Below, piece after piece: positions 2,803 to 51,522 of a stretch of DNA of 64,000 nt (positions are counted from its first letter, which is position 1; every line of letters starts with the position of its first letter). The notes beneath the pieces were generated by a model. That model searched no databases. It saw nothing but the letters and a program-made list of their open reading frames with translations, and had not been told where the DNA came from. The stretch comes from Jiella pelagia (lineage in GTDB: Bacteria > Pseudomonadota > Alphaproteobacteria > Rhizobiales > Rhizobiaceae), in NCBI RefSeq assembly GCF_026898155.1, contig NZ_CP114029.1, positions 4,940,001 through 5,004,000 of the forward strand. The letters are read 5' to 3'. Both the position numbers and the translations under genes were made by a program.

Positions 2803-4211
2803 ATGGGCACCAAGAGACGGAGATCACATCGTTCGGGACGAGCACCATCGCCGTCACCGGGACGGCCGCCACTGGCCTCCCGAACTGAGCCTCGAGCGGT
2901 TCTGGTCCGGTATTGCGAATGGGATGAGCAGCGATGATGCTGCTGTGTCGGCGGGCATGTCGGCCCCTGTCGGCGCCCGCTGGTTCCGAAAGGCAGGCGG
3001 CATGCCACCAGCGATGTTCAGGTCTTCGACCAAGCCGTTGTCCAGGCGGTATCTCTCGTTTGCCGAGCGCGAAGAGATCGCTCTTTTTCGTGTCCAAGGC
3101 CTGTCCAGGCAGGAAATCGGGCGCCGACTTGGTCGAGCCGCCTCGACGATCTCGCGAGAACTCCGGCGCAACGCCGCGACACGCGGCGGTGGCCTGGAGT
3201 ATCGAGCGACGACCGCCCAATGGCATGCCGAGCGATCGGCTCGGCGACCGAAAGCCGCGAAGCTTGCTCTCAACACGGCTTTGCGCACCTATGTCGAGGA
3301 ACGGCTCGCCGGAATGGTCGCGGCGCCGAGTGGTGTTGCCGTTCCTGGCCCTGTTGTTCCCTGGAAAAGCCGCCGGCATGGCCAGCGCAAAGATCGGCGA
3401 TGGGCGAAGGCGTGGAGCCCGGAGCAGATCGCCAACCGTCTCACCGTCGACTTTCCCAATGACAAGGGGATGCGCATCAGCCACGAAGCCATCTATCAGG
3501 CGATCTTCATCCAGGGTCGCGGTGCGCTCCGCCGTGAACTGACGGCATGCCTTCGCACCGGACGGGCGTTGCGGACGCCGCGGGCGCGCGTTGGTCAGAG
3601 AGGCAAAGGATTCGTCTCTCCCGAGATCATGATCAGCGAACGCCCGGCCGAAGCGTCCGATCGGGCCATTCCGGGACACTGGGAAGGCGATCTCATTCTG
3701 GGGCTGGAGAGCCTCGGCGATCGGCACGCTCGTTGAACGCACGACGCGCTTCACGATGCTGCTGCATCTCCCGCGTCTTGAAGGCCATGGTGACGGGCCC
3801 CGAGCCAAGAATGGTCCGGCGCTCGCGGGGCATGGCGCTGAGGCTGTTCGTGATGCAATCACCCGCACCATCGTAGCGTTGCCCGTGGAACTGCGCCGTT
3901 CCTTGACCTGGGACCAAGGCGCTGAAATGGCCCAGCACGCGACGCTCAAGATCGATACCGGCGTCGATATCTACTTCTGCGATCCCCGGAGCCCATGGCA
4001 GCGCGGCACCAACGAGAACACCAACGGGCTTCTGCGCCAGTACTTTCCGAAGGATACGAACCTCAGCGCCCACAGCGCCGAAACGCTCGCCGCCGTGGCA
4101 GCGACCCTCAACGCCAGGCCGCGCAAAACTCTCGGCTGGAAGACACCTGCCGAAGCCCTTGACCGATGGCTGAAGACAATCGAAACCAACCATGTTGCGA
4201 CGACCGTTTGA
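2803..4211 (+). CDS. IS30-family transposase (frame broken twice as sequenced)
   Basis: DDE transposase of the IS30 family, about 468 aa once two one-base insertions are removed. The ATG at 2803 follows GAAGGAGG and starts MGTKRRR. After the first break come RYLSFAEREEIALF and an HTH (SRQEIGRRLGRAASTISREL), then a catalytic core with GHWEGDLI (first Asp), TWDQGAEMA (second Asp) and PWQRGTNENTNGLLRQYFP (Glu). Breaks occur at GAGCCTC 2887-2893 (restores TELERFWSGIA) and GAGCCTC 3709-3715 (restores SAIGTLVERTT). The corrected length of 1407 nt is an exact 469 codons. Both breaks are of the GAGCTC type found across the window, so the enzyme may be intact in the organism. Confidence 0.85.
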
Positions 4212-4218
4212 ATCCGCC
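4194..4218 (-). repeat. IS30-family right terminal inverted repeat
   Basis: 25-bp terminal repeat, reading on the minus strand GGCGGATTCAAACGG followed by TCGTCGCAAC. It overlaps the last codons of the transposase gene and pairs with 2757-2781. Confidence 0.82.
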
Positions 4219-4518
4219 CAATATGTCAGCCTTCGCTACACCGAGCGGCTGGCCGAGGCCGGCATCGAGCCCTCCGTTGGCAGTGTCGGGGATCCCTACG
4301 ACAACGCTCTCGCCGAGACGATCAACGGCCTCTTCAAGACCGCGGTGATCCACCGGTGCGGGCCGTGGCGCAGCTTCGAAGCTGTCGAGTTCGCCACCCT
4401 CGAATGGGTCGACTGGTTCAATCATCGCCGGCTGCTCGAGCCGATCGGCAACATCCCACCCGCCGAGGCGGAAGCTGCATACTACGCTCGGCTTGAGGCC
4501 ATGCCGATCGCCGCGTAG
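4219..4518 (+). pseudogene. IS3-family transposase OrfB, C-terminal fragment
   Basis: About 99 codons of the IS3 OrfB integrase core. SVGSVGDPYDNALAETING carries the second catalytic Asp region and the final catalytic Glu context, followed by FKTAVIH, then FATLEWVDWFNHRRLLEP, typical of the protein's C-terminus, and a stop at 4516-4518. The N-terminal two thirds are missing because the IS30 element sits at the break. There is no start codon of its own. Confidence 0.82.
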
Positions 4519-4559
4519 GATTCAAGCCAACCGGTCTCCGGGAAAGCCGGTGCGGTTCA
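4219..4559 (+). mobile_element. Truncated IS3-family element (right end)
   Basis: The right-hand portion of an IS3-family element, starting exactly at the IS30 right end and running to a probable terminal repeat ending in GCGGTTCA near 4559. It contains the 3' end of the orfB transposase gene (4219-4518) and the usual short non-coding tail. The left part is missing, so the element cannot move by itself. After it, 4560-4652 contains only a (TC)7 run and no gene. Confidence 0.65.
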
Positions 4560-4628
4560 TTGTCGGTTGAAGGGGCGGCCCCTGCGCGGCGCTTCAACAT
4601 CACGACAAGGTTGGCCCTGCGCCTGAAA

Positions 4629-4642
4629 TCTCTCTCTCTCTC
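4629..4642. repeat. (TC)7 simple repeat
   Basis: Seven TC dinucleotides immediately downstream of the livM stop codon, on the opposite strand to the gene. It is too short to assign a role; length variation would be possible. Confidence 0.6.
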
Positions 4643-4652
4643 CCGCCCGTCG

Positions 4653-5717
4653 TCAGGTGGCCTGTGTTTTTGACAGCGCCGCCGTTGGCGCGCGTTTGAA
4701 GTTGAACCGCTGCTTCACATTCTCCCAGAGCTTGGCCATGCCGAGCGGCTCATAGATCATGAACACGATGATCAGCACGCCGAATACGACCTGTTCCGCA
4801 GCCGATATGATGGTGGCGTCGATCGCGCCGTGGAAGACGTTGTTGCCGAGGCTGTTCAGGACGACGGGAAACAGCAGGATGAAGGCGGCGCCGATGAAGG
4901 CGCCGCTGATCGTGCCGAGGCCGCCGAGGATGACCATGAACAGGATCTTGAACGAGAGCTTGATGTCGAAGGCGACGGGCTCGAGCGATTTGAGATAGGT
5001 GAAGGCGAACAGCGCCCCGGCGACCCCGCAGAAGAAGGCCGAGATGGCGAAAGCCTGGAGCTTGGTGCGCAGAAGCGAGATGCCCATCGATTCCGCGGCG
5101 ATGTCCATGTCGCGCACCGCCATCCAGCTTCGCCCCGTACTGCCCCGGGTCATGTTGACGGCGAAGATCGTCAGCACCGCGACGACCACCACGACCACCA
5201 GATACATTTCCAGCGGCGTGGTGAAGGTCTTGCCGAAGATCACGATGTCCTGCGCCGTGATGATGCCGGACGTGTCGTAGTTCTTGAACCAGCCGAACTT
5301 GTCGATCATCCAGACGATGAAGAACTGCGAGGCCAGCGTCGCGACCATGAGGTAGATGCCTCGGACGCGCAGGCTGGGCAGCCCGAACAGGACGCCGAAG
5401 GCCGCGGCGATCAGGCCCGAGAGCGCCAGCGCCACCGGAAACGGCATGTAGGGCACGCGCAGGATCAGATTGAAGCAGGCGAAGGCGCCCGCTGCCATGA
5501 ACCCTGCCGCTCCGAGCGCCAACTGGCCGGCATATCCCATCACGATCTGCTGCCCGACCGCCGCCAGCGCGAGGCAGAGCCAGGGGATCAGGATCGACGC
5601 ATACCAGTAATCCGACTCGACGGTCAGCGGGATGACAAGCAAGGCCAACGCCAGCACGACCACGAGATTGGTCAGGTCGCTTCGCGTGTAGCCCATGAAG
5701 ACAACGTTCGTGTTCAT
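4653..5717 (-). CDS. livM: Branched-chain amino acid-type ABC permease LivM
   Basis: Inner-membrane permease (354 aa) of the Liv/HAAT family. About ten hydrophobic segments are visible. The family block AVGQQIVMGYAGQLALGAAG lies near residues 52-72. The coupling region includes SWMAVRDMDIAAESMGI (about residues 205-222), and VILGGLGTISGAFIGAAF is near residues 275-292. It is the last gene of a five-gene minus-strand operon (livK, livF, livG, livH, livM) and lies 11 bp after livH. The ligand may be a branched-chain amino acid, an amide or an aromatic acid; sequence alone does not decide. Confidence 0.92.
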   Translation of the reverse strand: MNTNVVFMGYTRSDLTNLVVVLALALLVIPLTVESDYWYASILIPWLCLALAAVGQQIVMGYAGQLALGAAGFMAAGAFACFNLILRVPYMPFPVALALSGLIAAAFGVLFGLPSLRVRGIYLMVATLASQFFIVWMIDKFGWFKNYDTSGIITAQDIVIFGKTFTTPLEMYLVVVVVVAVLTIFAVNMTRGSTGRSWMAVRDMDIAAESMGISLLRTKLQAFAISAFFCGVAGALFAFTYLKSLEPVAFDIKLSFKILFMVILGGLGTISGAFIGAAFILLFPVVLNSLGNNVFHGAIDATIISAAEQVVFGVLIIVFMIYEPLGMAKLWENVKQRFNFKRAPTAALSKTQAT

Positions 5718-5728
5718 CTGCCCCTATC

Positions 5729-7456: not shown

Positions 7457-8282
7457 CTAGGCTTGATGAAGATCGGGGTGGATGGCGCTTTCTCGTCTGA
7501 GGACGTCGCGGAAATTCTTCCGGCCCTCCTTGGAGACGCCGAGATAGAGATCCTTGACCTTCTCGTCGTTGAGGAGGCTCTGGGCGGTCCCGTGCAGCAT
7601 CACATGGCCGGTTTCGATGATGTAACCGTAGTGAGCATTGCGCAGCGCGACGTTGGTGTTCTGCTCCGCCAGCAGGATGCTCACGCCTTCGTTCTGATTG
7701 AGCGTGTTGACGATGTTGAAGATCTCGGCCACCAGCTGCGGTGCGAGGCCCATCGACGGCTCATCGAGGAGCAGCATCTTGGGCTTGGCCATCATCGCGC
7801 GCGCGACGGCGACCATCTGCTGCTCGCCACCCGACGTAAAGCCGGCTTGGCTCTTGCGGCGCTCTCTCAAGCGCTTGAAATAGGTGTATATCTTGTCGAG
7901 CCTCGTTGCGGATTTCGGCCTTGGATAGCTTGCGGGAATACGCTCCCGCAATGATGTTCTCTTCAACGGTCAGATGCGCGAAACAGCGGCGCCCCTCGAG
8001 CACCTGAACCATCCCGAGGCGGACCATGTCGGCCGGGCCCTGATGTCTGACCGGCTTGCCCTCGTAGGTGATCGTTCCCTTGGTGACCATGCCGCGTTCG
8101 GCGGCCAGCATTGTCGAGACCGCCTTCAGGGTGGTGCTCTTGCCGGCGCCATTGCCGCCGAGGAGGGCGACGATCTTGCCCCTCGGCACCGTCAGCGATA
8201 CGTCGTGCACTGCGGCGATGACGCCGTCATAGACGACCTCGATCGCGTCGATCTCCAGGATGTTGTCTGTGCTCGCGGTCAT
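7457..8282 (-). CDS. livF: Branched-chain amino acid-type ABC ATPase LivF (frame broken once as sequenced)
   Basis: Second ATPase of the operon, about 274 aa after correction. The first part has EIDAIEVVYDGVIAAVHDV, Walker A GGNGAGKST and VLEGRRCFAHLTVEENI. The second part has the signature TSGGEQQMVAVARAMM and Walker B MLLLDEPSMGLAP. The frame changes at GAGCCTC 7898-7904 (GAGGCTC on the coding strand); removing one base joins AEIRNE to LDKIYTYF and gives exactly 275 codons. The ATG at 8282 (MTASTDN) is preferred over one 10 codons upstream because AAGGAA lies just before it. Confidence 0.87.
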
Positions 8283-12175: not shown

Positions 12176-12179
12176 CGGG

Positions 12180-13747
12180 TCACAGCCCCCACGAGCGGCA
12201 TTTCCGGTCGATGGTCTTGCGGGCCACGCCGAGACGGCGCGCCGCTTCGGCGCGATTGCCGTCGCAGGCGTCGAGGACGGCAAGGACATGTCGCCGTTCG
12301 ACGGCGGCGAGGTCTTCGATCTCGATCCGGGTGGCGGCGGTGCCGAGGGCCGTCTCGAAGTCGCCGTGGATCAGGGCGCGCTCGACCGTGTTGCGCAGCT
12401 CCATGACGTTGCCCGGCCAGTCATGGGACAGGAACCGCCGGCGCGCCGCCGGCGAAAAGGCAGGGACGCCGGTTCCCATGCGCTGCGACAGCCTGTCTGA
12501 GAAAAATCGCGTCAGCTCCATGATGTCGGCCGTCCTCTGCCGCAGCGGCGGCAGGAGGATCTCGACCACGGTCAGGAGATAGAAGAGGTCCGTGCGAAAC
12601 ATCCGCTCCACGGCGATCGCCTGGAGCGGACGCGTCGTGGAGCTGATGATCCTCAGGTCGAATTCGAGACTGCGGCGCGCCCCCAGCGGGCTGAAGCGAC
12701 CGGTGCTGACGAGGCTCGGCGAGAATGTTCTGGCAACCCGCCGACAGCATCTCCACATCTTCGAGATAAAGGGTGCCGCCCGCCGCACTGAGGAGAATGC
12801 CCTCCTGCTGCGAAGACGGCCCGTCGGCCGGCGCGCCGAGATGTCCGAACAGGCGTTCCTGGAAGGCCTGTTCGGTCATGCCGTAGCATTGCAGCCAGAC
12901 GAAGGGATGGGCGGCCCGGGGCGAGGCGGCGTGCAGCATGCGCGCGGCGACCTGCTTGCCCGAGCCGACTTCGCCGCGGAAAACGACGTTGGAATGGGAC
13001 ATGGCGGCCTGTTCGATCGCCTGCCGGGCTCTCTGGATCTCGACCGACGTCCCCAGCAGCGCATCCCGATGCTTCAGAATGTCCTTGCCGACCTCGAGCC
13101 TCGTGGCGCAGCACCGAGTTCTGGCGCCGCAGGCGCGAACGTTCGAGACTGCGGGCGATGGCGTTCAGGACCTGATTGGAGCGAAACGGCTTCAGCAGGA
13201 AATCGCTGGCGCCGGCGCGAATCGCCTGGATCGCGGTGTCCAGATCGGCATGTGCGGTGATCATGATCGCGTCGCTGAAGAGGCCGATCTTGCGTTGCTC
13301 GGCAAGCCATTCCAGCCCGGTCTTGTCGGGCATGATGTTGTCGAGAATGATCACGTCATAGGCGTTTTCGTCGAGAAGCCGCGAGGCATCGCGCGTGTCC
13401 GCGGTGACGTCCACCCTGGCGCAGTTTGCGGCGAGAACTTTGGACAGGAAGTTCCGCATGCCAGGCTCGTCATCGATGACGAGCACGGCGGCCTTGGTCA
13501 ATTCGTCGCTGAGGGTTCCATTTTCGATTGTGGTGTCCGCCGGCTCTCTCAAGGCTGGCCGGCTGTTCGCACTCACGGACAAACTTGCCTGCCAAAGCCT
13601 GCTGGCGAAGACCAGCTCTTCAACGGGCGATGGAACCAAAAGTCGGTAGCGGCCAGGACCAGATGGCAGCGAAGCTCCCGATGCGATGCCGCTGAAGCAT
13701 CGCCAATCGCCGTATCGATCCTCCGACACGACATCACGGCGATTCAC
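12180..13747 (-). CDS. NtrC-like response regulator lacking the GAFTGA motif (frame broken twice as sequenced)
   Basis: Receiver, AAA+ and Fis-type HTH protein, at most 521 aa after correction. The receiver has VLVIDDEPGMRNFLSKVL, phosphoacceptor VIILDNIMPD and FLLKPF. The AAA+ part has Walker A GEVGSGKQ and TLYLEDVEML in place of the usual Walker B D-E, but no GAFTGA: the corresponding stretch reads LFGHLGAPADGPSSQQEG. FRTDLFYLLTVVEILLPPLR and a C-terminal GNRAEAARRLGVARKTI helix-turn-helix follow. Breaks at GAGGCTC 12711-12717 and GAGCCTC 13096-13102; removing two bases gives exactly 522 codons. The start is uncertain: 13747 is the only ATG, but the receiver begins about 85 residues later and an internal TTG or GTG is likely. 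Confidence 0.8.
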
Positions 13748-19374: not shown

Positions 19375-19969
19375 ATGGGCGGAGACATCTCAGCAACCGG
19401 CACGAGCGTGAAGCTCGACAGCCCCGCCGTCGTTGGCCTCGGCAGAGCGATTCGCGCCTTGCGGGCGGAGCGCGGCCTGTCTCTGTCGCAGCTCGCGCTC
19501 TCGGCCAGCGTCGACAAGGGCTATCTGTCGCGGGTGGAGCGCGGCCTGAAGGTGCCGTCGGTGGCGATTGTCTTGAGGATATCCACGGCCCTGCAGGTGT
19601 CCGCGGCTCAGCTTTTCGGCGCTGCCGAGGATCACGACCTCATTTTCCTGACCAGGGCCGGCGATCGTGGTGGTCTTACCGCGACTGACGCGACCTATCA
19701 GATGGAGGCTCCTGACGCGCGGAAGCGACAGTTCCGGGCTGGAGGTCTTTCTGATGTTCCCACCCGCTGATTTCCCCGACGAGCCGGAACTTGCTCACCG
19801 GGGCGAGGAACTTCTGTTCGTGGTGGAGGGCCGGGTCGAGATCCGCTTTCCAGACCGACTCCTGGTGCTGGAGAAGGGGGACGCAGTGCAGTTCCCGGGG
19901 CCGCTTCGCCATCAGCTCCGGCGTCTGGAAGACAAAAGCTGTGTGCTGATTTCTGTCAGCGGCCCATGA
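19375..19969 (+). CDS. XRE-family transcriptional regulator with C-terminal cupin (frame broken once as sequenced)
   Basis: Small regulator, 197 aa after correction. The N-terminal HTH spans about residues 20-75 (GLGRAIRALRAERGLSLSQL, then DKGYLSRVERGLKVPSV). The cupin half has PDEPELAHRGEELLFVVEG, RVEIRFPDRLLVLEKGDAVQF and a C-terminal LISVSGP. The frame changes at GAGGCTC 19705-19711; removing one base joins TYQME to LLTRGSDSSG and gives exactly 198 codons. XRE-cupin regulators usually bind a small effector in the cupin and control an adjacent catabolic operon; the divergent TRAP operon is the obvious target. The start was chosen as the ATG nearest the HTH; an earlier ATG at 19276 is possible. 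Confidence 0.85.
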
Positions 19970-22152: not shown

Positions 22153-23256
22153 GCGGCACCGGCTTGGCGGATGCGCTGGCCGGAGGCGCCGAACAACAGG
22201 AAGCGGGATGGGTCGAGCCGGATCCGGCTCGAAGTCTCGGCGCGATGGCGGGCATTGTCGCTGCGCGCGATGATCCGCTCGCCGGCCGGCATCGACGCGT
22301 GCATGTAAGTCACGTCGCCGAGGCTCTTCGACCAGCGTGACCTCGACCTCGACATCGCCGTCCAGCGTTTCGCCGGAGGGGGCGAGCCGGACATGCTCCG
22401 GCCGCACGCCGATCTCGACGGATCCCTCGGCCGCGTCGAAGCCGCGAAACGGCATGACGAGGGATGCGGACGATCCGCCGATGTTATCGAGGACAATCGC
22501 CTCGGGGCGCACCTCCTTCACCGTCGCCGACAGGAAGTTCATCTTCGGCGATCCGATAAAGCCGGCGACGAAACGGTTGTCGGGATCGTCATAAAGGTCG
22601 AGCGGACGGCCGCACTGCTGGATGACGCCGCCATTCAGGACCACCATGCGGTCGGCCAGCGTCATCGCTTCGACCTGATCGTGGGTGACGTAGATCATCG
22701 TCGCCTTGAGTCGCCGATGCAGGTCTATCAACTCGGCGCGCATCTGCACGCGGAGTTCGGCGTCGAGGTTCGACAACGGCTCGTCGAACAGGAAGACCTT
22801 GGGCTCCCTGACGATCGCCCGGCCGATGGCGACGCGCTGCTTCTGGCCGCCGGAAAGCTGGCCGGGCCTTCGCTGCATATGCGGCTCGAGCTGCAGGATG
22901 GCCGCGGCCTTCGCCACCTTCTCGCGGATTTCTGACTTCTTCGCGCCCGCCATCCTCAGGCTGAAGCCCATGTTCTCGGCGGCGGTCATGTGCGGATAGA
23001 GGGCGTATGACTGGAACACCATCGCGGTGCCCCGGCGCGCCGGATCGACGTCGTTGAGGCGCTCACCGTCGAGGCGCAGCTCGCCGGCGGTGATCTCTTC
23101 GAGACCGGAGATGATGCGGAGCAGGGTCGACTTGCCGCAGCCGGACGGGCCGACGAAGACGACGAACTCGCCCGAGCGGATGTTGAGATTGATGTCGCGC
23201 AGGACATCGACGGCGCCGAATTTCTTGGCGACGCCAGTGATATCGAGTTGTGCCAT
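22149..23256 (-). CDS. Sugar ABC transporter ATPase, UgpC/MsmX type (frame broken once as sequenced)
   Basis: ATPase (368 aa after correction) of the CUT1 sugar importer family. Walker A is GPSGCGKST (about residues 38-46), signature [16 protein letters not shown], Walker [16 protein letters not shown], then [18 protein letters not shown], and a C-terminal TOBE region with [15 protein letters not shown]. The frame changes at GAGGCTC 22320-22326; removing one base joins VEVTLVEE to [15 protein letters not shown], the expected TOBE continuation, and gives exactly 369 codons. As sequenced, the frame instead runs on into the kinase gene and creates a false fusion. Confidence 0.88.
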
Positions 23257-25084: not shown

Positions 25085-26349
25085 TCAGTTGGCCAGGCAG
25101 TCGTCGAGGCTCTTCGACCAGTTCCTTTGCCCCCTCCTCGGGAGTGGCGTCCCCATCGGCGACCATCGCGGCGTTGTCGGTGATGATCGAGCGGTAGCAG
25201 TTCGGATAGGCGCCATCGAAATAGGGGGGCATGACGTCGACGGCGTATTTGACCGCCTGCACCGACTTCTCGATCAGCGGCAGTTCGGCGACGCTCGGCT
25301 CCGCCATGGCCTCGGCATTGGCGTTGTAGCGCGAAAGAAGCTTCGCCCAGCGCGCCATCTGGTTCTTCTCGGTGATGTAGGCGGCGAACTCGAAGGCGAT
25401 CTTCTGGTGCTCGCCCGGCGCCACGCCGACGAGCCTCGTAGCTCTTGATGCCGCCGTGCTCGCCTTCCTTCATCCCCGGCACCAGCACGAAGTCGTATTT
25501 GAGTCCGGATTCCCTGGCCGCCTGCTCGTAGGTCGGATTGACCCACGGACCGACCACGTGGAACGCCAGCTGGTTGGTGATGAAGAGATCCTTGGTCGAC
25601 TGATCGTTGCGGCTGGTGCCGCTGTTGAGCGGCGCCATGTCGACGAAGAGCTGCAGGACCTTGGTGTAGGTCTCGGGATCGATCTTGGTCTTCATCGCGT
25701 CGAAATCGATGCCCCAGCCGTCGATGCCGCCGACGATCGCATAGGTGCTGGCGACCGAGTTGAAGACCTGGGTCTGGTCAGGCACGGCGTATTTGCCCGC
25801 CTTCTGGACAGTCTGCATCTGCCCGTACCACTCCGCCCAGTCCTTCGGCGCCTGCGAAGTGTCGATGCCGGCTTCCTCAAGGACAGTCAGATTGCGGAAC
25901 ATGATCTCGCCGAAGCCGGTATAGGGCAGGCAGTAGAGGGTCTCGGGCTTGGGCATGCAGCTCTTCAGCGCGTCCGCGTCGAACTGCGCGCGGTAGGCTT
26001 CGGGCATCTCCATCCACAGCGGATAGAGATTGGAGAGCGCTCCGACTTCGACGAGCTGCGCGCCGACTGCCAGCCCGTTCATGAAGACATCGGGCAGGGT
26101 GCCGCTGGCCGCACCGGCGATCTGGCCCGCCGTCAGGTCGTCGTCGCCGCGTCCGGAAATGTTGATCGTGACGTTCGGGTGCTTTTCCTTGAACTCGGAA
26201 ATGAACGTCTGCTGCAGCGCCAGGGCGTCGCCCTGCGCGAAGTCCGAATAGACCCAGTATTCGAGCGTCACCGGCTCGTCGGCCCGGGCGGAACCGGCCG
26301 CGAAGGCCAAGAGGACGGTCGCTGATTTCAGCATGGCGGAACTGCGCAT
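25085..26349 (-). CDS. Sugar ABC transporter substrate-binding protein (frame broken twice as sequenced)
   Basis: Family 1 extracellular binding protein, 420 aa after correction, first gene of the sugar operon. The signal peptide is residues 1-23 (ends SARA). Seen: TLEYWVYSDFAQGDALALQQ, FKEKHPNVTINISG, GTLPDVFMNGLAVGAQLVEVG, LYCLPYTGFGEIMFRN and ITNQLAFHVVGPWVNPTYEQ. Breaks at GAGCCTC 25431-25437 (restores KSYE-LVGVAPGEHQ) and GAGGCTC 25106-25112 (restores ELVEE-LDDCLAN and the stop at 25085). Removing two bases gives exactly 421 codons, strong support that the gene is intact in the organism. The ligand is probably an oligosaccharide or amino sugar, judging by the kinase and SIS genes. Confidence 0.88.
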
Positions 26350-34125: not shown

Positions 34126-35367
34126 TCAGAGGCCGCTGTTGTCGGCCGCCTCGGTCAGCGCCTCTTCGGGGCTTGCCATGCCGAGGATCGCCGACTGGAT
34201 CGCCAGCTGCAGCGCCTGCGACAATTCCTGGTAACGGGGCGTCGTTGGCCGGGGATACATCACGGCGAGGGACTGCTTGGCCGCGGCGACGAGTTCTTCC
34301 TGGCCCTTGGTGACGGCCGGGTCGTCATAGGACGACTTCCAGATCGGCAGGCTCAGCCTGGCGTATTCGTTCTGCACCTTCTGGGAGGTCATGAAGGTCA
34401 CGTAATCCCAGGCCTCGTCCTTGTGCTGGCTCGTCGTCGTGACGCCGAGACCCATCGAGCCGTTGACCGCCGATGCCTCGCTGGTGCCTTCGTGGCCGGG
34501 GGCGGGAACGACGCCGACCTTACCGGCGACCTTGGATTCCTTCGGGTCGTTGGCGAGGTTGTACATGTAGGTCCAGTTCAGCGCGAAGGCCGCGTCGCCG
34601 TTCTGAAAGACCTTCCGGACGTCCTCTTCCAGATATTCCTTGGAATTCGGATTGGTGATGCCGTCCTTCATCGTGCCGGCCATGTATTGCAGCGCCTCGA
34701 GGCCACCGCCCGTCTGGAACGCCGGCTTGCCGTCTGCGTCGAGGAAGGAGCCGCCATAGGCCGAGAGGATCGTGGTATAGTCGCAGACGGCGGCTTCGGC
34801 CTGCGACCAGCTCCAGACGATCGGCTCTTCCAGCAGGCCCTTCTCCTTGATGGTCGCAGCCTGGCTCGCGAGTTCGTCCCAGGTCTTCGGGGGCGCCTTG
34901 ATGCCCGCCTTTTCAAGGATTTCCTTATTGTAAAACAGGTATTTGGTGTCGAGAATCCACGGCATTCCATAGGTCTTGCCGTCGTACTGCACCGTCGTCC
35001 AGGCGCCCGGCAGGACGCCGTCCTTCATCTCGGGCGTGATCTTGTCGGTCGCGTCGACGAGAACGTCGTTGGACGCGTATTCCGCCGGCCAGATCACGTC
35101 GAAGAGGACGACATCGTAACCGCCGCCCGACCCTTGGGCGAGAACCGTCTTGTCGTGCAGGCCCTCATAGGGAACGAATTCGAGCTCGACCTTCACGTCG
35201 GGATGTTCCTTGGTGAAGGCCTCGGTCATGGCCCGCACGTCGGCTTCGCTGTAGGCAGCCTGTGCCATGAAGAGGGCGCGGAGCGTCGTTTCGGCGAAGG
35301 CCGGGGACGCGAGGAATGCCGCGATGGCGGCGGCCCCAATGGCGGTTGAAGCGAGACGATGGCGCAT
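34126..35367 (-). CDS. Sugar ABC transporter substrate-binding protein
   Basis: Family 1 binding protein (413 aa), first gene of the second sugar operon. The signal peptide is residues 1-25 (ends SPAFA). Seen: MTEAFTKEHPDVKVELEFVP, GLHDKTVLAQGSGGGYDVVL followed by FDVIWPAEYAS, MPWILDTKYLFYNKEILEKA, KVFQNGDAAFALNWTYMYN and GSMGLGVTTTSQHKDEAW. AGGGGAGT precedes the ATG. It contains one of the four intact GAGCTC sites in the window (35182-35187). The ligand is unknown. Confidence 0.91.
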   Translation of the reverse strand: MRHRLASTAIGAAAIAAFLASPAFAETTLRALFMAQAAYSEADVRAMTEAFTKEHPDVKVELEFVPYEGLHDKTVLAQGSGGGYDVVLFDVIWPAEYASNDVLVDATDKITPEMKDGVLPGAWTTVQYDGKTYGMPWILDTKYLFYNKEILEKAGIKAPPKTWDELASQAATIKEKGLLEEPIVWSWSQAEAAVCDYTTILSAYGGSFLDADGKPAFQTGGGLEALQYMAGTMKDGITNPNSKEYLEEDVRKVFQNGDAAFALNWTYMYNLANDPKESKVAGKVGVVPAPGHEGTSEASAVNGSMGLGVTTTSQHKDEAWDYVTFMTSQKVQNEYARLSLPIWKSSYDDPAVTKGQEELVAAAKQSLAVMYPRPTTPRYQELSQALQLAIQSAILGMASPEEALTEAADNSGL

Positions 35368-37296: not shown

Positions 37297-37312
37297 ATGA
37301 ATGATCGTTCAT
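37297..37312. promoter_or_regulatory. Candidate TetR operator upstream of the leucine-degradation regulator
   Basis: ATGAATGA-TCGTTCAT, an inverted repeat with 7 of 8 arm positions matching, 16-31 bp before the chosen regulator start. The size and spacing are typical of TetR-family operators. It supports the later start at 37328, because a start at 37301 would lie inside the palindrome. Confidence 0.5.
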
Positions 37313-37327
37313 GCACTGGAAGAGTCC

Positions 37328-37948
37328 ATGCTGAAGAGTGAGGCGGTGATTTCCGGCCATCCGAAGGCCAGCACGAAACAGGCGATCGAGCGCGCCGCGC
37401 TCAGCCTGTTCGCCGAGCGAGGCTATCCGGCTGTTTCCATGCGCGAGATCGCCGAGCGGGTCGGGATCCGCCAGGGCGGCATCTACAATCACTTCGGCAG
37501 CAAGCAGGCGCTTCTGGTGCATCTGATGGAAGGGCATATGCGTGCGCTTCTTGTCGCGCTCGATGCCTCGGTGCCGAAGGGGGGCGACCCTCGCCAGCGG
37601 CTTGCCCAGTTCGTGCGATTTCACGTGCTCTACCACCTGACGCAGCCAGATGACGTATTCATCGCATACATGGAACTGAGAAGCCTGGAGCCGGACGGGC
37701 TTACCCGCCTGAAGGAACTCCGGCGCGCCTATGAGGAGCGTCTGCGTCGAATCCTCGAGGCAGGGCAAAGGCTCGGCGTTTTCGCGATCACAGATGTGCC
37801 GGTCCAGGCGATGGGGCTGATCGCGATGCTGACGGGTGTGACCACCTGGTATCACGACGGTGGCCGGCTGACCCGGGAAGAGGTCGCGGATATCTACGCT
37901 GAAATGGTCATGCGCAGCCTCGATGTGGAGGAAACTGAGAAAAGCTGA
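37328..37948 (+). CDS. TetR/AcrR-family regulator of the leucine/isovalerate degradation operon
   Basis: Regulator of 206 aa. The N-terminal HTH has KQAIERAALSLFAERGYPAV, SMREIAERVGIRQGGIYNHF and GSKQALLVHLMEGH, a standard TetR DNA-binding domain. The rest is an all-helical ligand domain containing LAQFVRFHVLYHLTQPDDVF and LRRILEAGQRLGVFA. It lies 48 bp before ivd on the same strand, so it probably controls that operon, with an acyl-CoA as the likely effector by analogy with other catabolic TetR proteins. Confidence 0.87.
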   Translation: MLKSEAVISGHPKASTKQAIERAALSLFAERGYPAVSMREIAERVGIRQGGIYNHFGSKQALLVHLMEGHMRALLVALDASVPKGGDPRQRLAQFVRFHVLYHLTQPDDVFIAYMELRSLEPDGLTRLKELRRAYEERLRRILEAGQRLGVFAITDVPVQAMGLIAMLTGVTTWYHDGGRLTREEVADIYAEMVMRSLDVEETEKS

Positions 37949-37996
37949 ATAGGCCAGCCGTGACAAGCGGCCGGTGTTCTTGTGGGAGGCAAGAAG

Positions 37997-39162
37997 ATGT
38001 TCGACCAGACCATGAATTTTGCGCTCGGCGAGGAGGTCGCAGCGCTGCGAGAGATGGTGCATCGCTTCGCCCAGGAGAAGATCGCTCCGCGGGCCGGTGA
38101 AATCGATGCCACCAACGAATTTCCGAACGAGCCTCTGGCGCGAGATGGGAGAACTCGGTCTTCTCGGCGTCACGGTCGAGGAAGAGTTCGGCGGATCGGG
38201 CCTTGGCTATGTCGCCCATTGCGTCGCCGTCGAGGAGATCTCCCGGGCCTCCGCCTCGGTCGGCCTTTCCTACGGTGCCCATTCCAATCTTTGCGTCAAC
38301 CAGATCCGCCGCAACGGCACCGACGCGCAGAAGCGCACATACCTGCCGAAGCTGATCTCCGGCGAACATGTGGGCTCACTGGCGATGTCCGAGAGCGGCG
38401 CCGGATCCGACGTCGTCTCGATGAAGCTCAAGGCCGAGCCGAAGAACGACCGCTTCGTCCTCAACGGCACCAAGATGTGGATCACCAACGGGCCGGACGC
38501 AGACACTCTCGTCGTCTACGCCAAGACCGATCCGCAAGCCGGCCCGCGCGGCATCACCGCCTTTCTGGTCGAGAAGGGCATGGCGGGCTTTTCCACCGCC
38601 CAGAAACTCGACAAGCTCGGCATGCGCGGCTCCAACACCTGCGAACTCGTCTTTGAGGATTGCGAGGTGCCCTACGAGAACGTCCTCGGCGAGGTGGGCG
38701 GCGGCGTGAAAGTGCTGATGAGCGGGCTCGATTACGAACGCGTGGTTCTGGCGGCGGGGCCGGTCGGCATCATGGCCGCCTGTCTCGACGTGGTGGTGCC
38801 TTACGTTCACGAGCGCAAGCAGTTCGGCCAGGCGATCGGCGAGTTTCAGCTGATGCAGGCGAAACTCGCCGACATGTATGTCACCACCAATGCCTGCCGG
38901 TCCTATGTCTACGCCGTCGCCGCCGCCTGCGACCGGGGTGAGGTCAGCCGCAAGGACGCAGCCGGCTGCATCCTCTATGCCGCAGAGGCCGCGACACAGA
39001 TGGCGCTGCAGGCGATCCAGGCGCTCGGCGGCAACGGCTACATCAACGACTATCCGACCGGCCGCCTCCTGCGCGACGCCAAGCTCTACGAAATCGGCGC
39101 CGGGACGAGCGAGATCCGGCGCATGCTGATCGGCCGCGAGCCTCTTTGCGGAGACGGCTTGA
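37997..39162 (+). CDS. ivd: Isovaleryl-CoA dehydrogenase (frame broken twice as sequenced)
   Basis: FAD-dependent acyl-CoA dehydrogenase, 387 aa after correction. Converts isovaleryl-CoA to 3-methylcrotonyl-CoA. Seen: [20 protein letters not shown] and [19 protein letters not shown] (FAD and substrate sites); [20 protein letters not shown], whose Glu is at the IVD-specific catalytic position; and [20 protein letters not shown]. Breaks at GAGCCTC 38129-38135 (restores [16 protein letters not shown]) and GAGCCTC 39138-39144 (restores IGRE-LFAETA and the stop at 39160-39162). Removing two bases gives exactly 388 codons. GGGAGG precedes the ATG. Confidence 0.92.
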
Positions 39163-39170
39163 TGGTCGTC

Positions 39171-39916: not shown

Positions 39917-41521
39917 ATGAGATTGATCTCGCAAGTTTCCCCCGCTCCGAAGCCTTCGCGGAAAACCGCAAGGCGATGCTGGCGCAGCTCGATGTCGCGC
40001 GCGCGGCTGCCGATCTGGGGCTGGCGGGTGGCGGCGAGCGGGCGCGCGAGCGGCATCTGTCGCGGGGCAAGCTTCTGCCGCGCGACCGGGTGGAGGGGCT
40101 TCTCGACCGCGGGTCGCCCTTTCTCGAAATCGGCCTCTTCGCCGCTCATGGACTTTATGGCGACGCGGTGCCGGCGGCCGGCGCGATCGCCGGTATCGGC
40201 CGGGTGAAGGGCCGCGAGGTCATGGTTCTCGCCAATGACGCGACGGTGAAGGGCGGCACCTATTTCCCGCTGACGGTCAAGAAGCACCTGCGCGCCCAGG
40301 AGATCGCCGAGGCGAACCGGCTGCCTTGCGTCTATCTCGTTGATTCCGGCGGCGCCAACCTGCCGAACCAGGACGAGGTCTTTCCCGACCGCGACCATTT
40401 CGGCCGCATCTTCTTCAACCAGGCGCAGATGAGCGCCAAGGGCATCGCCCAGATCGCCGTCGTCATGGGGTCCTGCACCGCCGGCGGCGCCTATGTGCCG
40501 GCGATGAGCGACGAGACCATCATCGTAAGGGATCAGGGCACGATCTTTCTGGCCGGCCCGCCGCTCGTCAAAGCCGCGACCGGCGAGGATGTCGAGGCGG
40601 AGGATCTCGGCGGCGGCGATGTGCATACCCGGCTTTCGGGTGTCGCGGACCATCTCGCCCATGACGATCTGCATGCGCTGGAGATCGCGCGCGACATCGT
40701 GGGAAATCTCGGCCGCGCGGAACCGGCAAAGATCGCGCGGCGGGCGCCGGAAGAACCGGCTTATGACCCGGAAGACATCCTCGGCGTCGTGCCGGCCGAC
40801 CCGAAGACACCCTATGACGTGCGCGAGGTGATCGCCCGGCTCGTCGACGGCTCGCGCTTCGAAGAGTTCAAGGCGCGCTACGGCCCGACCATCGTCTGCG
40901 GCTTCGCCCATCTTTACGGAATCCCGGTCGGTATCGTCGCCAACAACGGCGTCATCTTTTCCGAAAGCGCGGTGAAGGCGGCGCATTTCATCGAGCCTCT
41001 GCTCCCAGCGCAAGATTCCGCTCGTCTTCCTGCAGAATGTCACCGGCTTCATGGTCGGGCGCAAATACGAGGCCGGCGGCATCGCCAAGAACGGTGCCAA
41101 GCTGGTGACAGCGGTCTCGACCACGGCCGTGCCGAAGATCACCATGCTGATCGGCGGCTCATACGGCGCCGGCAATTACGGCATGTGCGGCCGGGCCTAT
41201 TCGCCCCGCTTCCTGTGGAGCTGGCCGAACAGCCGCATCGCGGTGATGGGCGGCGAACAGGCGGCGAAGACGCTCGCCATCGTCAAGCGCCAGGCGATGG
41301 AAAAACGCGGCCAGGACTGGAGCGCGGAAGAGGAAGAAACGTTCCGCAAGCCGACGGAGGACATGTTCACCCGCCAGAGCCATCCGCTCTACGCCTCGGC
41401 AAGGCTTTGGGACGACGGCATCGTCGATCCGCGCCACAGCCGGCAGATTCTCGGCCTGTCGCTGGCTGCGAGCCTCAACGCACCGATCGAAGACACGCGC
41501 TTCGGTCTGTTTCGGATGTGA
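39917..41521 (+). CDS. mccB: Methylcrotonyl-CoA carboxylase, carboxyltransferase (beta) subunit (frame broken twice as sequenced)
   Basis: Carboxyltransferase subunit, 534 aa after correction, carboxylating 3-methylcrotonyl-CoA with MccA. The ATG at 39917 gives MRLISQVSP; one missing C in the run 39939-39943 is needed to continue into [13 protein letters not shown], the standard N-terminus. Seen: [77 protein letters not shown]. The second break is GAGCCTC 40993-40999 (restores [19 protein letters not shown]). One base added and one removed leave exactly 535 codons, the usual length. Confidence 0.9.
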
Positions 41522-45315: not shown

Positions 45316-46212
45316 ATGAATGACCGCGGCAAAGGGCAGGGAGGCCCCGAGCCGGCGGACAACGCCAAAAGGGGAGGAGCTTTCTTGGCGGATCGAGGCA
45401 GTGTGATCCTGAAGGTCGACGACGTGTCGGTGCGCTTTGGCGGCGTCAAGGCGTTGAGCAACGTGTCGTTCGACGTGCGCAAGGGCGAGCTCTTTTCGCT
45501 GATCGGGCCGAACGGCGCCGGCAAGACGTCGATGCTGAACTGCATCTCGGGCCGCTATCGCCCGACGAGCGGCAACATCGCGTGGCAGGGGGACGATCTT
45601 CTGAAACATTCGATCAATGATCGGGCAAGTCTCGGTATTGGTCGCACGTTTCAGAACCTCGCTTTGTTCGGCCATATGAGCGTGCTCGACAACATTCTGG
45701 TCGGCCGCCACCACCGGATGAAGAACAACTTCGTCACGGGCATGTTCTATTGGGTCGGCGGCGCGCGACGCGAGGAACTCAAGGAGCGCCGCTTCGTCGA
45801 GACGATCATCGACTTCCTCGAAATCCAGCATGTGCGCAACGAGCCGGCGGGCATTCTGTCCTACGGCCTGCGCAAGCGGGTGGAGCTTGCCCGGGCGATC
45901 GCGATCGAGCCCGAACTGATCCTCCTCGACGAGCCGATGGCCGGCATGAATCTGGAAGAAAAGGAGGACATGGCCCGGTTCATCATCGCGCTGCGTGAGG
46001 AATTCGACATGACGATCATGATGATCGAGCATGACATGGGCGTGGTTATGGACCTGTCGGACCGGGTCGCGGTGCTCGATTTCGGCCGCGTCATCGCCGC
46101 CGGAAGCCCCGAAGAGGTGCTGGCCGACGAGCATGTGAAGAAAGCCTATCTCGGGGAGGACGACGAGATGCTCGACGCGCTCGCCGCCGAGGAAGCGGAG
46201 GCCGTGGCATGA
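45316..46212 (+). CDS. livG: Liv-type ABC transporter ATPase LivG
   Basis: ATPase (298 aa) of the second Liv-type importer. A 26-residue hydrophilic N-terminal extension precedes SVILKVDDVSVRFGGVKAL. Walker A is GPNGAGKTS, and RTFQNLALFGHMSVLDNI follows. The signature variant is LSYGLRKRVELARAI, Walker B is LILLDEPMAGMN. It contains an intact GAGCTC (45487-45492). The start could be internal, since the ribosome site at 45316 is weak (GGGG). It overlaps the acyl-CoA synthetase gene by 4 bp. Confidence 0.91.
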   Translation: MNDRGKGQGGPEPADNAKRGGAFLADRGSVILKVDDVSVRFGGVKALSNVSFDVRKGELFSLIGPNGAGKTSMLNCISGRYRPTSGNIAWQGDDLLKHSINDRASLGIGRTFQNLALFGHMSVLDNILVGRHHRMKNNFVTGMFYWVGGARREELKERRFVETIIDFLEIQHVRNEPAGILSYGLRKRVELARAIAIEPELILLDEPMAGMNLEEKEDMARFIIALREEFDMTIMMIEHDMGVVMDLSDRVAVLDFGRVIAAGSPEEVLADEHVKKAYLGEDDEMLDALAAEEAEAVA

Positions 46213-48202
46213 CGGAGCGTCGGCTCGAAATCAGCGGCGAGGCGATCGGCTGGCCTGACACGGCGCCCGAACTGAAGGAAGCGGCGCAGCTGAAGACGCT
46301 GCCGAAGCTGTTGCGCCACAATGCCGAACGCTATCCCAAACTCGTCGCCCAGCGCGAGAAGGAATTCGGCATCTGGGTCAGCTACAGCTGGGAAGAGGTC
46401 GAAGGGCATATTCTCGCAGATGGCCGCCGCCTTCGCCGAACTCGGCGTCGGAGCGGGCGACGTCGTGGCGCTGATCGGCGACAATCGGCCGGAATGGGTC
46501 TGGGGCGAGGTCGCCGCCCATGCCTGCAGGGCGATGAGCCTCGGTGTGTATCGCGACGCGCTGGAAGAGGAAATCCGCTATCTCGCCGGCCACGCCCATC
46601 CCAAGGTGATCATCGCCGAGGACGAGGAGCAGGTCGACAAGCTGCTCAATCTCGGCGATGCGATCCCGAGCGTTCAGGCGATCGTCTACACCGACCCGCG
46701 CGGCATGCGGAAATATGACGATGCAAGGCTGATCGCGATCGCGGACCTTGAGGAGCGCGGACGACGCGCGCTGCAAAAGGATACGGGCCTGTGGACGCGC
46801 ATGGTCGAGGCGACCGACGGCGCCGATGTCGCGATCCTCTGCACCACCTCGGGCACGACCTCGAGCCCCAAGCTCGCCGAATGGACGGGCGAGGCTTTCA
46901 TCGGCCATGCCGCGACGTATCTCAGAGCAGACCCACGCGGACCCGAGGACGAATATGTCGCGGTCCTCCCGCTCTCCTGGGTGATGGAGCAGATGTATTC
47001 GGTCGGTTGGAACTTCCTCGCCCGGATGAAGGTCAATTTTCCCGAGGAGGAGCGCACGATGATGGCCGATCTGCGCGAGGTCGGCCCGACCTTCGTGCTC
47101 CTGTCACCGCGCGCCTGGGAGGGCGTTGCGGCCGACATCAGAGCCCGCATCATGGACGCCACGCCCTGGAAACGCCGGATCTACAATTGGGCTGTCGGCC
47201 GCGGCATGGCGGCGATGGAAAAGGGTGGGCGCGACGGCGCCGCAGAGTGGGGCCTGTTCCGCCATTTGCGGGACAGGCTCGGCTTTTCGCGGCTGAAATC
47301 GGCCGCCACCGGCGGCGCCGCCATGGGCCCCGACACGTTCCGCTTCTTCCAGGCCATGGGCCTGCCGCTGAAGCAGCTCTATGGCCAGACCGAAGCGCTC
47401 GGCGCCCATACGATCCACCAGGCCGGACATGTCGACTATGAGACGGTAGGCTTCCCGATGCCGGGAGTGACGCTGTCGATCCGCGATCCTGATCCCGAAG
47501 GGCTCGGCGAGGTGCTTGTGCGCCATCCGAACATGATGAGCGGCTATTACCGCAACGCCGAAGCTTCGAAGGAGAGCTTTTCCGAAGATGGCTGGTTCCA
47601 GACCGGCGATGCCGGCTATCTGACGGAACGAGGCCATCTCGTGGTGATCGACCGGATCAAGGATCTGGCGGAGACCTCGCGCGGGGTCCGCTTCTCGCCG
47701 CAATTCATCGAGAACAAGCTGAAATTCTCGACCTACGTCGCCGAGGCCGTGATCCTGGGCAAGGACCGGCCCTATCTCGGGGCGATGATCTGCATCCGCT
47801 ATCCGATCGTCGCCAAATGGGCCGAGGAGCGGCGGATCTCCTTCACCACCTACTCCGACCTCGCCTCGCGGCCGGAAGTCTATGCGCTGCTGCGCGAGGA
47901 GGTCGAGCGCGTCAACGCAACGCTCCCGGCGCAGCAGCGGATCACCAAATTCGTCCTCCTCTACAAGGAGGCTCGACGCCGACGACGGCGAACTGACCCG
48001 CACCAAGAAGGTCCGGCGCGGCGTCATTGCGGAGAAGTACGAGGACATCATCGCGCGGATCTATTCCGGTGCCGATCATGTCGACATCGACACGATCATC
48101 CACTTCCAGGACGGCTCGAAGCAGCGGGTGGTCACGAGCCTTGCGATCGAGACCCTCGACAACGCGCCCGACGCCCAAAAGACGGAGAGCCAGGCGGCAT
48201 GA
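46209..48202 (+). CDS. Long-chain acyl-CoA synthetase-like AMP-forming ligase (frame broken twice as sequenced)
   Basis: ANL-family ligase, 663 aa after correction, activating a carboxylic acid to its CoA ester. Seen: LPKLLRHNAERYPKLVAQRE, VVALIGDNRPEWVWGEV, the AMP-binding P-loop ILCTTSGTTSSPK, LKQLYGQTEALGAHTIH, SEDGWFQTGDAGYLTERGHL and LTRTKKVRRGVIAEKY near the end. The first break, near 46400-46415, is a net one-base gain without GAGCTC. The second is GAGGCTC 47968-47974 (restores YKE-LDADDGELTRTKK). Removing two bases gives exactly 664 codons. Ligases of this type are often encoded inside Liv operons, presumably to trap the imported acid. Confidence 0.87.
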
Positions 48203-49092: not shown

Positions 49093-49096
49093 CCCC

Positions 49097-50158
49097 GTGG
49101 CGCATGTTCCCAATCCAAGACCCACCGGCGATTTCCGCGCGACCTACGCCGCCGACCGGACGCTCTTCCGCACCCGCAACGAGACGATGGCGGTTCTGGC
49201 CGGCGTCGTCCTGGTGGCGCTCTGCCCGCTGGTCTTCGGCGGCTACGTGCTGTCACAGCTGATCATGATCGGCATTTACGGCATCGCCGCTTTGGGGCTG
49301 AACGTCCTGACCGGCATGACCGGCCAGATCTCGCTCGGCCATGGCGCCTTCTTCGGCTTCGGGGCCTTCGCCTCGGCCTGGATTTCCGGCAACGGCATTC
49401 CGGTCCTGATCGCGATCCCGCTCGCCGGGCTGATGACCATGGCCGTCGGCATGATCTTCGGCATTCCGGCGGCGCGGCTGAAGGGGCTCTACCTCGCCAT
49501 TGCGACGCTCGCCTCGCAATACATCCTGCAGGACTTCTTCGCCCGCGCCGACTGGTTCACCGGCGGCACCTACGGGTCGCTCGCGGAGACGGCGAGCTTC
49601 TTCGGCTTCCAGCTCAACAGCGACGCGCGCTATCTCTATCTCGTCCTGTTCTGGGTGGTCGTCGCCTTCGTCGCCGTCGCCAATCTCGCCCGCACCCGGG
49701 ACGGCCGGGCGTTGGTGGCGGTGCGCGACCATTATCTCTCGGCCGAGATCATGGGCATCAATCTGACGCGATACCGCATCCTGTCCTTCGGCATCTCGTC
49801 CTTCTTCGCCGGCATCGGCGGGGCGCTCTACGGCCATTATCTCGGCTTCGTCTCGGCGGAAGGCTTCACCATCATCCTGTCGATCGAGTTCCTGGCGATG
49901 ATCATCATCGGCGGGCTCGGCTCGGTGTCGGGATCGCTTTTGGGCGCGGCCTTCATCCTGCTTTTGCCGCAGGCGATGGAAGTTTTCGCCAATGGCGTGG
50001 CGACCGTCGTGCCGGCCATCGCGCAGGGCACGGCCTACATCAAGCAGATGAGCGTCGGTGCGGCGATCATCCTGTTTCTCGTTCTCGAACCGGAGGGACT
50101 TGTCCATCGCTGGCGCATGACGCGCGCGAGCTGGAAACTGTTTCCCTTCTCGCACTGA
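49097..50158 (+). CDS. livM: Liv-type ABC transporter permease LivM
   Basis: Inner-membrane permease (353 aa). Seen: IAALGLNVLTGMTGQISLGH, GAFFGFGAFASAW, IPAARLKGLYLAIATLASQY, LVAVRDHYLSAEIMGINLTR (coupling helix) and IIIGGLGSVSGSLLGAAFIL. GTG start at 49097, 4 bp after livH; no in-frame ATG gives the family N-terminus. Confidence 0.91.
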   Translation: MAHVPNPRPTGDFRATYAADRTLFRTRNETMAVLAGVVLVALCPLVFGGYVLSQLIMIGIYGIAALGLNVLTGMTGQISLGHGAFFGFGAFASAWISGNGIPVLIAIPLAGLMTMAVGMIFGIPAARLKGLYLAIATLASQYILQDFFARADWFTGGTYGSLAETASFFGFQLNSDARYLYLVLFWVVVAFVAVANLARTRDGRALVAVRDHYLSAEIMGINLTRYRILSFGISSFFAGIGGALYGHYLGFVSAEGFTIILSIEFLAMIIIGGLGSVSGSLLGAAFILLLPQAMEVFANGVATVVPAIAQGTAYIKQMSVGAAIILFLVLEPEGLVHRWRMTRASWKLFPFSH

Positions 50159-50164
50159 GCCGTG

Positions 50165-50192
50165 GCCGGACCGCCGGGGAGGGCGGGCCGGC
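50165..50192 (+). terminator. Hairpin after livM
   Basis: Stem arms GCCGGACCGCC and GGCGGGCCGGC with one A/G mismatch and a 6-base loop. It starts 7 bp after the livM stop, in the 118-bp gap before the binding-protein gene. No U-run follows. It may protect the upstream mRNA 3' end or attenuate. Confidence 0.5.
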
Positions 50193-50276
50193 TCACTTCA
50201 ACCGATGACGGCGGTCTTCGCGGCTCCGCCAGCATCTTGAGCCACTTCAAAGTCCGCGAATGGGAGGAATTCGACA

Positions 50277-51522
50277 ATGCCAAGGCTCCACAGACTGACC
50301 CTGACGGCTGCGCTGGCGGCCACCACCATCATTGCCGGCGCGCCGGCGCTTGCGCAGGATGACAGCGTCCTCGTCGGCCATCTGGCCGACTACACCGGCG
50401 CGACGTCCTTCGTCGGCAAGCAGTATGGCCCGGGCGTCGCCGACGCCTTCAAAGAGATCAACGCCGATGGCGGCATCGATGGCACGATGGTCGAGCCTCG
50501 ACACCGTCGACTACGCCTACAAGGTTCCCGAAGCGATCGCCCAGTTCAAGAAATGGGTCGGCAACGACATGGTTGCCCTGCAGGGCTGGGGTACGGCCGA
50601 CACGGAGGCGCTGATCTCCTTCGTCGCGCGCGCCGAGATCCCGACGATCTCCGGCTCCTATTCGGCGCATCTGACCGACCCGCAGGGCAAGAACCCGAAC
50701 ACGAAGGCACCGGCGCCCTACAACTTCTTCTACGGCCCGTCCTATTCCGACGCCTGCCGGGCGCTGGTCCAGTGGGCCGCCGAGGACGCCAAGGAGAAGG
50801 GGACCGAGAACCCGACCTTCGTCCACACCGGCGACAACCATCCTTATCCCAATGCGCCGAAGGAGGCCTGCGCGTCCTATGCCGAGGAGCTGGGCTTCAC
50901 CGTCGCCCAGCCGGTCGTCGTGCCGCTCGCGCCGGGCGACTTCAAGGCGCAGTGCCTGACGATCAAGGATTCCGGCGCCCAATACGTCTATATGGGCAAT
51001 CTCGGCGGTTCGGTCGTGTCGATGATCAAGAGTTGCAACACGGTCGGCGTCGAAGCGACCTACATGGGCAATCCATGGGCCGGCGACTATCAGACCGTGG
51101 AAGCGGCAGAGGCGCAGAACCTGATTTTCCCGTCCTCGACGCCTTTCTACGGGGCCGACGTGCCCGGCATGGCGCTGGTCAAGAAGATCCTCGAAAATGG
51201 CGGCGGCCAGGTCGGCGACCGGCCGACCCACCATTATCTGCGCGGCATCTGCTCGGCCTACTACATGAAGGAAGCCATGCAGTGGGCCAAGGCCAATGGC
51301 GGCATCACCGGCAAGAACATCCGTGACGGCATGTATCAGAAGACCGACTGGGTGCCGGAAGGGCTCGAGGGCGTCTGCTCGCCCTCGACATGGACTGCGG
51401 AGGACCATCGCGGCCTTCTCAGGGTGGCGATCAACTCCGGCTCCTTCACTGACGGCAAGGCGGTCATCGAGGAAATCGCCGAGATCGACGTGCCGCGCCG
51501 CGAGGAATGGCTCGGACAGTAA
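50277..51522 (+). CDS. Liv-type ABC transporter substrate-binding protein (frame broken once as sequenced)
   Basis: Periplasmic binding protein, 414 aa after correction. The signal peptide is residues 1-26 (ends APALA). Seen: VGHLADYTGATSFVGKQYGP, ADAFKEINADGGIDG, LQGWGTADTEALISFVARAE, PTISGSYSAHLTDPQGKNPN and YFMKEAMQ-like C-terminal sequence (YYMKEAMQWAKANGGITG). The frame changes at GAGCCTC 50493-50499; removing one base joins TMVE to LDTVDYAYKVPEA and gives exactly 415 codons. GGGAGGAAT precedes the ATG. Ligands of such long family members include aromatic and aliphatic acids; two CoA ligases in the cluster fit an acid. Confidence 0.9.

Follow-up and report, generated by a model that had tools for sequence, protein, structure and literature searches.

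The window analysed here is a stretch of 64,000 nucleotides of Jiella pelagia (assembly GCF_026898155.1, contig NZ_CP114029.1, positions 4,940,001 to 5,004,000), in which ten genes lose their reading frame at a word that reads as the palindrome GAGCTC with one extra central base. The genes encode an IS30-family transposase, a LivF-like ABC ATPase, an NtrC/NtrX-like regulator, an XRE-cupin regulator, a MalK/UgpC-like sugar ABC ATPase, a sugar-binding protein, an enzyme of the isovaleryl-CoA dehydrogenase type (ivd), a protein of the carboxyltransferase type (mccB), an acyl-CoA ligase, and a Liv-type binding protein. The original prediction had listed 14 such words and had ascribed them to a systematic base-calling error, for example at a methylated GAGCTC; the analysis below follows the words from the window to the whole assembly and its relatives.

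Frame breaks in the window

All 14 words were located where they had been placed (GAGCCTC, n = 9; GAGGCTC, n = 5), and the frame was found to be lost at each of them when the sequence was examined as given, with no base removed, the support being thinnest at 25106 (Table 1). The homologue of the IS30 transposase was spread over three frames joining at 2887 and 3709, and the NtrX profile likewise occupied three frames. A model of codon usage, trained only on the window and blind to the motif, called a same-strand frame change no more than 60 bp away at 11 of the 14 sites, 10 of these calls being of the +1 class. After retraining, 10 of the 29 GAG[CG]CTC words in the window had a same-strand switch no farther than 20 bp away, against a mean of 0.8 and a maximum of 6 for random places (5000 draws); the break at 2887 was not resolved by the retrained model, and the first model had assigned it to a class other than +1. 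Since the window holds 29 GAG[CG]CTC words in total, 15 of them fall outside the claimed set.

Unaltered GAGCTC occurs exactly four times in the window, so that, as had been stated, about 14 of 18 sites are altered. The accompanying expectation of roughly 20 sites per window is fair, because Markov models of orders 1 to 4 gave 36.7, 22.8, 23.8, and 16.4, respectively.

Table 1. Seven-base words at frame breaks, unaltered GAGCTC sites, and one contrasting word, in window coordinates
Feature	Coordinates	Strand	Observation
IS30-family transposase gene, GAGCCTC	2887..2893	+	homologue residues 1-29 end at 2889; 32-303 in next frame from 2897
IS30-family transposase gene, second GAGCCTC	3709..3715	+	homologue to residue 303 ends at 3712; rest to 456 in next frame; codon model
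LivF-like ABC ATPase gene, GAGCCTC	7898..7904	-	LivF profile 4-113 / 112-236 in two frames; codon model
NtrC/NtrX-like regulator gene, GAGGCTC	12711..12717	-	NtrX profile 136-249 / 256-383 in two frames; codon model
NtrC/NtrX-like regulator gene, GAGCCTC	13096..13102	-	NtrX profile 3-136 / 136-249 in two frames; codon model
XRE-cupin regulator gene, GAGGCTC	19705..19711	+	homologue residue 106 ends at 19704; 107 starts at 19706 in next frame
MalK/UgpC-like sugar ABC ATPase gene, GAGGCTC	22320..22326	-	codon model; MalK profile ends at 310 of 369
Sugar-binding protein gene, GAGGCTC near gene end	25106..25112	-	weakest of the 14: homologue aligned to residue 411 of 418; one-base gap in DNA alignment
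Sugar-binding protein gene, GAGCCTC	25431..25437	-	homologue residue 303 at 25435, 304 at 25433 in next frame; codon model
ivd, GAGCCTC	38129..38135	+	codon model; six-base word in 4/4 aligned relatives; N-terminal domain match starts at profile position 32
ivd, late GAGCCTC	39138..39144	+	six-base word in all relatives (7 genomes, 9 alignments)
mccB, GAGCCTC	40993..40999	+	profile 15-327 / 365-488 in two frames, gap 328-364 around site; six-base word in 5/5 aligned relatives
Acyl-CoA ligase gene, GAGGCTC	47968..47974	+	homologue residue 573 ends at 47970, rest in next frame; codon model
Liv-type binding protein gene, GAGCCTC	50493..50499	+	homologue residue 68 ends at 50495, 69 starts at 50497 in next frame; codon model
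Unaltered GAGCTC	35182..35187
Unaltered GAGCTC	45487..45492
Unaltered GAGCTC	51671..51676
Unaltered GAGCTC	53926..53931
Contrast: GAGCCTC outside the claimed 14	41470..41476	+	seven bases also in 5/5 aligned relatives

GAGCTC and its seven-base derivatives across the genome

The assembly (5.95 Mb, three contigs) was compared with nine other genomes of the same genus, and the genome-wide count that the original prediction had proposed as a check showed GAGCTC to be depleted and GAG[CG]CTC to be in excess. GAGCTC occurs 353 times, as against 702-1945 times in the nine genomes, and its ratio to CTCGAG is 0.15, as against 0.51-0.74. GAGCCTC (1078) and GAGGCTC (1097) together number 2175, whereas the reversed words (504 and 480) number 984; the resulting ratio of 2.21 compares with 0.93-1.12 in the nine genomes. 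The excess of 1191 words, set against the 353 intact sites, corresponds to about 77% of GAGCTC sites altered, which is similar to the fraction in the window, and altered and intact sites are intermixed along the chromosome. Completeness was 85% for this assembly and 93-100% in the nine others. Odd counts of a different kind were seen in two further genomes, G339 (CTCGAG 159 vs GAGCTC 728) and G248 (4.8 Mb; GAGCTC 58, CTCGAG 100), for which restriction-site avoidance or low G+C content is a possible cause.

A scan blind to the motif was performed on 2,122,000 bases of the genome (10,000 masked as N), in which 961 same-strand frame switches were found and all 7-mers were ranked by their occurrence near a switch. 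GAGCCTC/GAGGCTC ranked first, with 286 of 823 occurrences near a switch and 8.2 expected; a switch lay 20 bp or less from 300 of the 823 words, and 293 of these switches were of the +1 class. GAGACTC/GAGTCTC was also enriched (20 of 66 near a switch, 0.7 expected), and the extra base is therefore sometimes A or T. Among controls, the reversed words were near a switch in 10 of 353 cases and intact GAGCTC in 2 of 126. In three relatives (380,000 bases), 6 of 76 GAG[CG]CTC words had a switch nearby (+1 in 4 cases), and the word stood low in the 7-mer list, with 4 matches vs 0.5 expected, beneath words of gene starts. Once switches lying 60 bp or less from the motif had been removed, 105 (+1) and 188 (+2) switches per Mb were left, near the 87 and 229 of the relatives, and the words that remained were mainly starts, stops, and ribosome sites. 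Two broader definitions of the motif were rejected. One-letter variants of the word had a +1 switch nearby in at most 0.95% of cases. GAGCCC/GGGCTC (26 of 1537 near a switch) and GGGCCC (9 of 503) showed no enrichment, and the motif is therefore GAGCTC and not GRGCYC. GAGCTC is thus the one strong motif behind the frame breaks.

At the 313 +1 breaks the inserted base was G in 151, C in 142, T in 13, and A in 7. The two strands of the palindrome are equally affected, both by the genome-wide counts of the two words and by the numbers of inserted C and G, and the choice between C and G tracks the neighbouring base (p = 7e-6). The break words GAGACTC/GAGTCTC, at 20 places, can be read as an inserted A, in which case the next base is G in 19 of the 20.

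Relatives were compared at the same places using alignments of at least 75% identity, which covered 239 kb at a mean identity of 84%; a threshold of at least 92% to one relative yielded 10 kb only. Where relatives have GAGCTC, this genome has the +1 word at 23 places, the intact word at 2, a substitution at 74, and another state at 1, so that, substitutions aside, the +1 word is found at 23 of 25. None of 14 control hexamers (12 of them palindromes) showed a central +1. Clean one-base insertions in this genome numbered 17, with 9 inside the word and 8 outside, and the 9 clean deletions were all outside. The same insertions in related strains, which the original prediction had named as evidence against an error, were not found at 38129, 39138, and 40993, the three sites of the window that could be compared at the DNA level: every aligned same-genus relative has the six-base word there, whereas the nearby GAGCCTC at 41470, which was never among the claimed breaks, has seven bases in the relatives too.

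Two observations from these alignments stand apart. Parts of the ivd-mccB region (37301-39164 and 39939-41518) are 90-97% identical in several same-genus genomes and the stretch between them is unalignable, which may reflect either strong conservation or transfer. Four copies of an apparent repeated mobile sequence share a one-base difference from relatives that lies outside the motif.

Genes needed for life were sought with a set of 81 mainly essential E. coli K-12 proteins, of which 27 were matched in the 2.12 Mb, some partially or by distant paralogues. Breaks at the word were present twice in secA, three times in a gyrA/parC-type gene, and once each in infB and pnp, and no frame change was found in the other 23 of the 27 matched proteins. 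The gltX profile was likewise split, over three frames that meet at two GAGCCTC words. Real insertions are very improbable because a living cell could hardly tolerate the loss of secA, infB, a gyrA/parC-type gene, and gltX, and the sparing of essential genes that real pseudogenes would lead one to expect is not seen. The sole full 16S-like stretch in the bases examined contains zero GAGCTC and zero GAGNCTC and is uninformative on the error.

A candidate modification enzyme

Three methyltransferase families (PF00145, PF01555, and PF02384) were searched in the genome. PF00145, the C5-cytosine methyltransferases, had one match (C1:1356652-1357947; 192 bits, 432 amino acids), to which type II methyltransferase models of PADLOC also match. 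A search of 396 other genomes of its order found close relatives of this enzyme in 6; among named genomes at least 80 matches were listed, the best among those listed being an uncultured Sphingomonas at 81%. Relatives found with the C5 methyltransferase in plasmid and phage searches were all below 60% identity.

The adjoining gene encodes a probable nuclease with an MTaX1 domain, a domain potentially involved in discriminating modified DNA and occurring in several restriction-modification systems (PMC10853773). This gene itself lies in two frames around the GAGCCTC at C1:1358460-1358466, whereas its homologues are in one frame, and both of its pieces match in the same frame at 14 of 45 loci (two of which seem to belong to one genome). 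A model of the Sphingomonas neighbour (predicted local distance difference test score 76, predicted template modelling score 0.51) resembles I-Ssp6803I (E = 1.5e-3) and Hjc, with low-probability matches to EcoRV; the structure search with this model returned nothing at E <= 0.001. The C5 methyltransferase and the MTaX1 nuclease are likely a restriction-modification pair, because the former matches its family and a probable nuclease is linked to it. The methyltransferase is the best candidate for the writer of a GAGCTC modification, at about even odds. A possible second candidate writer is a 609-amino-acid protein (C1:3270147-3274004) that ends in an N6/N4 methyltransferase domain and of which about 300 residues match nothing in Pfam.

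GAGCTC is the recognition word of SacI. The putative pair would resemble SacI-type and GRGCYC restriction-modification in having GAGCTC, or a class containing it, as its recognition word; it differs from the SacI type in carrying an MTaX1 domain, and from a GRGCYC system in that GRGCYC is unsupported here. The SacI-family endonuclease RE_SacI (PF09566) had no match in the genome, and the control genomes gave none either. Cytosine methylation at GAGCTC is reported for marine virus genomes (PMC9516812), and GRGCYC with 5-methylcytosine for Propionibacterium freudenreichii (PMC11649196). That the +1 marks are the footprint of strict GAGCTC modification by the MTaX1-linked methyltransferase/nuclease pair may be held at even odds.

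Explanations for the extra base

The base-calling error originally proposed is supported by the depletion of GAGCTC together with the excess of its derivatives, by the strictness of the word, by the equal use of C and G, by the relatives, and by the essential genes; the modification is inferred. It is close to certain that the extra central bases are absent from the living chromosome and are an artefact of reads or consensus, and the ten genes in the window are almost certainly intact in the cell. A consensus artefact caused by modification of GAGCTC is the preferred explanation as a whole, with a probability of about 0.88. GAGCTC would carry a sequence-specific modification on both strands, and the modified palindrome would shift the signal in long-read sequencing, most likely on a nanopore instrument. 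The base caller or polisher would then add one base at about three quarters of the GAGCTC sites, mostly a second C or G according to strand and flanks, and seldom A or T.

Such an artefact resembles nanopore errors at Dcm motifs (CCWGG, 5-methylcytosine), where consensus errors are tied to one palindrome and arise with models untrained on the modified signal; in Klebsiella pneumoniae, about 70% of the consensus errors with default models lay in Dcm motifs (PMC6591954). It differs in that the motif is GAGCTC, that a central +1 is found at about 77% of the sites, and that the modification is deduced. Strain-specific methylation-induced nanopore errors, as far as the available sections describe them, are also confined to one strain and its motif in native-DNA assemblies, but are mainly R/Y ambiguities and substitutions and not single-base insertions (PMC11610573, PMC12016153, PMC12392509). 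Homology-based polishing has been proposed against methylation-bound errors (PMC8011154). No description of a central +1 at GAGCTC was recognised in a limited search of open-licence literature.

The strongest alternative is a context error of the base caller or polisher at unmodified GAGCTC. The insert does depend on flanking bases, and alteration is more frequent where the outward flank is G on both sides (132 of the 313 broken sites vs 20 of the 91 intact sites in coding sequence; Fisher p = 5e-4). However, GAGCTC is common and is met by base callers in training, its one-letter neighbours are untouched, and the sole error motif is a restriction-type palindrome, which therefore favours modification; a context error is accordingly regarded as improbable. 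Real mutations aimed at GAGCTC, for example through a blunt central cut to which one nucleotide is added before ligation, would fit the single word, the fixed position, the use of any of the four bases, and the nuclease gene beside the C5 methyltransferase. Some 1200 such events would have to coexist, including those in secA, the gyrA/parC-type gene, infB, and gltX, while the aligned relatives have zero such insertions at the three comparable sites and the genome bears no further sign of decay, its other switches being near the relatives' level. This explanation was rejected on the essential-gene breaks and the relatives, is very unlikely, and is not needed.

Least probable, and scarcely credible, is that the bases are real and that the ribosome skips one at the word by programmed frameshifting. 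The uniform +1 class of the switches near the word speaks for it, as does the codon phase, since 292 of the 313 breaks start in phase 0 (19 in phase 2 and 2 in phase 1). Unaltered GAGCTC is equally biased, however (82, 7, and 2 of 91), so that phase is immaterial and its bias reflects Glu-Leu codon pairs. Moreover, the frame is unchanged at 202 GAGNCTC words situated deep inside coding segments (other words could not be sorted), and the relatives are without the insertions. Translational bypass was rejected on the unbroken words and the shared phase bias.

Several points weigh against a modification-induced consensus artefact. The non-coding signal points the same way but is weak (GAGCTC, 17 in 326 kb here and 8 in the relatives' 60 kb; GAG[CG]CTC, 108 and 15), and deamination counts for 5-methylcytosine (22 vs 16) give no clear signal. 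Of 60 relatives, 5 have a forward/reversed ratio above 2.21, none of them a member of the genus; the reversed words are a fair control for close relatives only. Genomes with relatives of the C5 enzyme (6 + 30, one apparently in both sets) lack a comparable excess, with a top ratio of 1.85, although these are possibly short-read assemblies, and further methyltransferases are present in this genome (PF01555, two; PF02384, two, one of them weak). The cited nanopore work, within its available text, reports substitutions or ambiguities and no near-uniform +1, and neither "insertion" nor "indel" occurs in the main text of PMC11610573 and PMC12016153 as accessible. A few breaks occur without the word, for example in a pnp-like gene near C1 2715492, next to a break at GAGGCTC 2714411. 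Against an Azospirillum homologue, the acyl-CoA ligase gene also has a further break near 46420 (46404-46438) with no GAGNCTC nearby, for which a sporadic error, a genuine change, and an effect of the gene start are possible causes. Finally, the evidence consists of assembled sequences, from which modification, platform, and enzyme are all inferred.

About 1200 false insertions stand in one public assembly, in which essential and metabolic genes appear broken alongside a completeness of 85%, and such insertions would distort counts of pseudogenes, the calling of pathways, and the content of protein databases. Under the preferred explanation, an assembly can record its own DNA modification, the word here having been recovered blind from frame breaks. 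If the +1 marks are indeed the footprint of the methyltransferase/nuclease pair, modification motifs and methyltransferase specificities would be recoverable without reads, from motif-locked frame breaks in finished public assemblies. Applied at scale, such a scan could pick out affected genomes and point to the specificities of methyltransferases.

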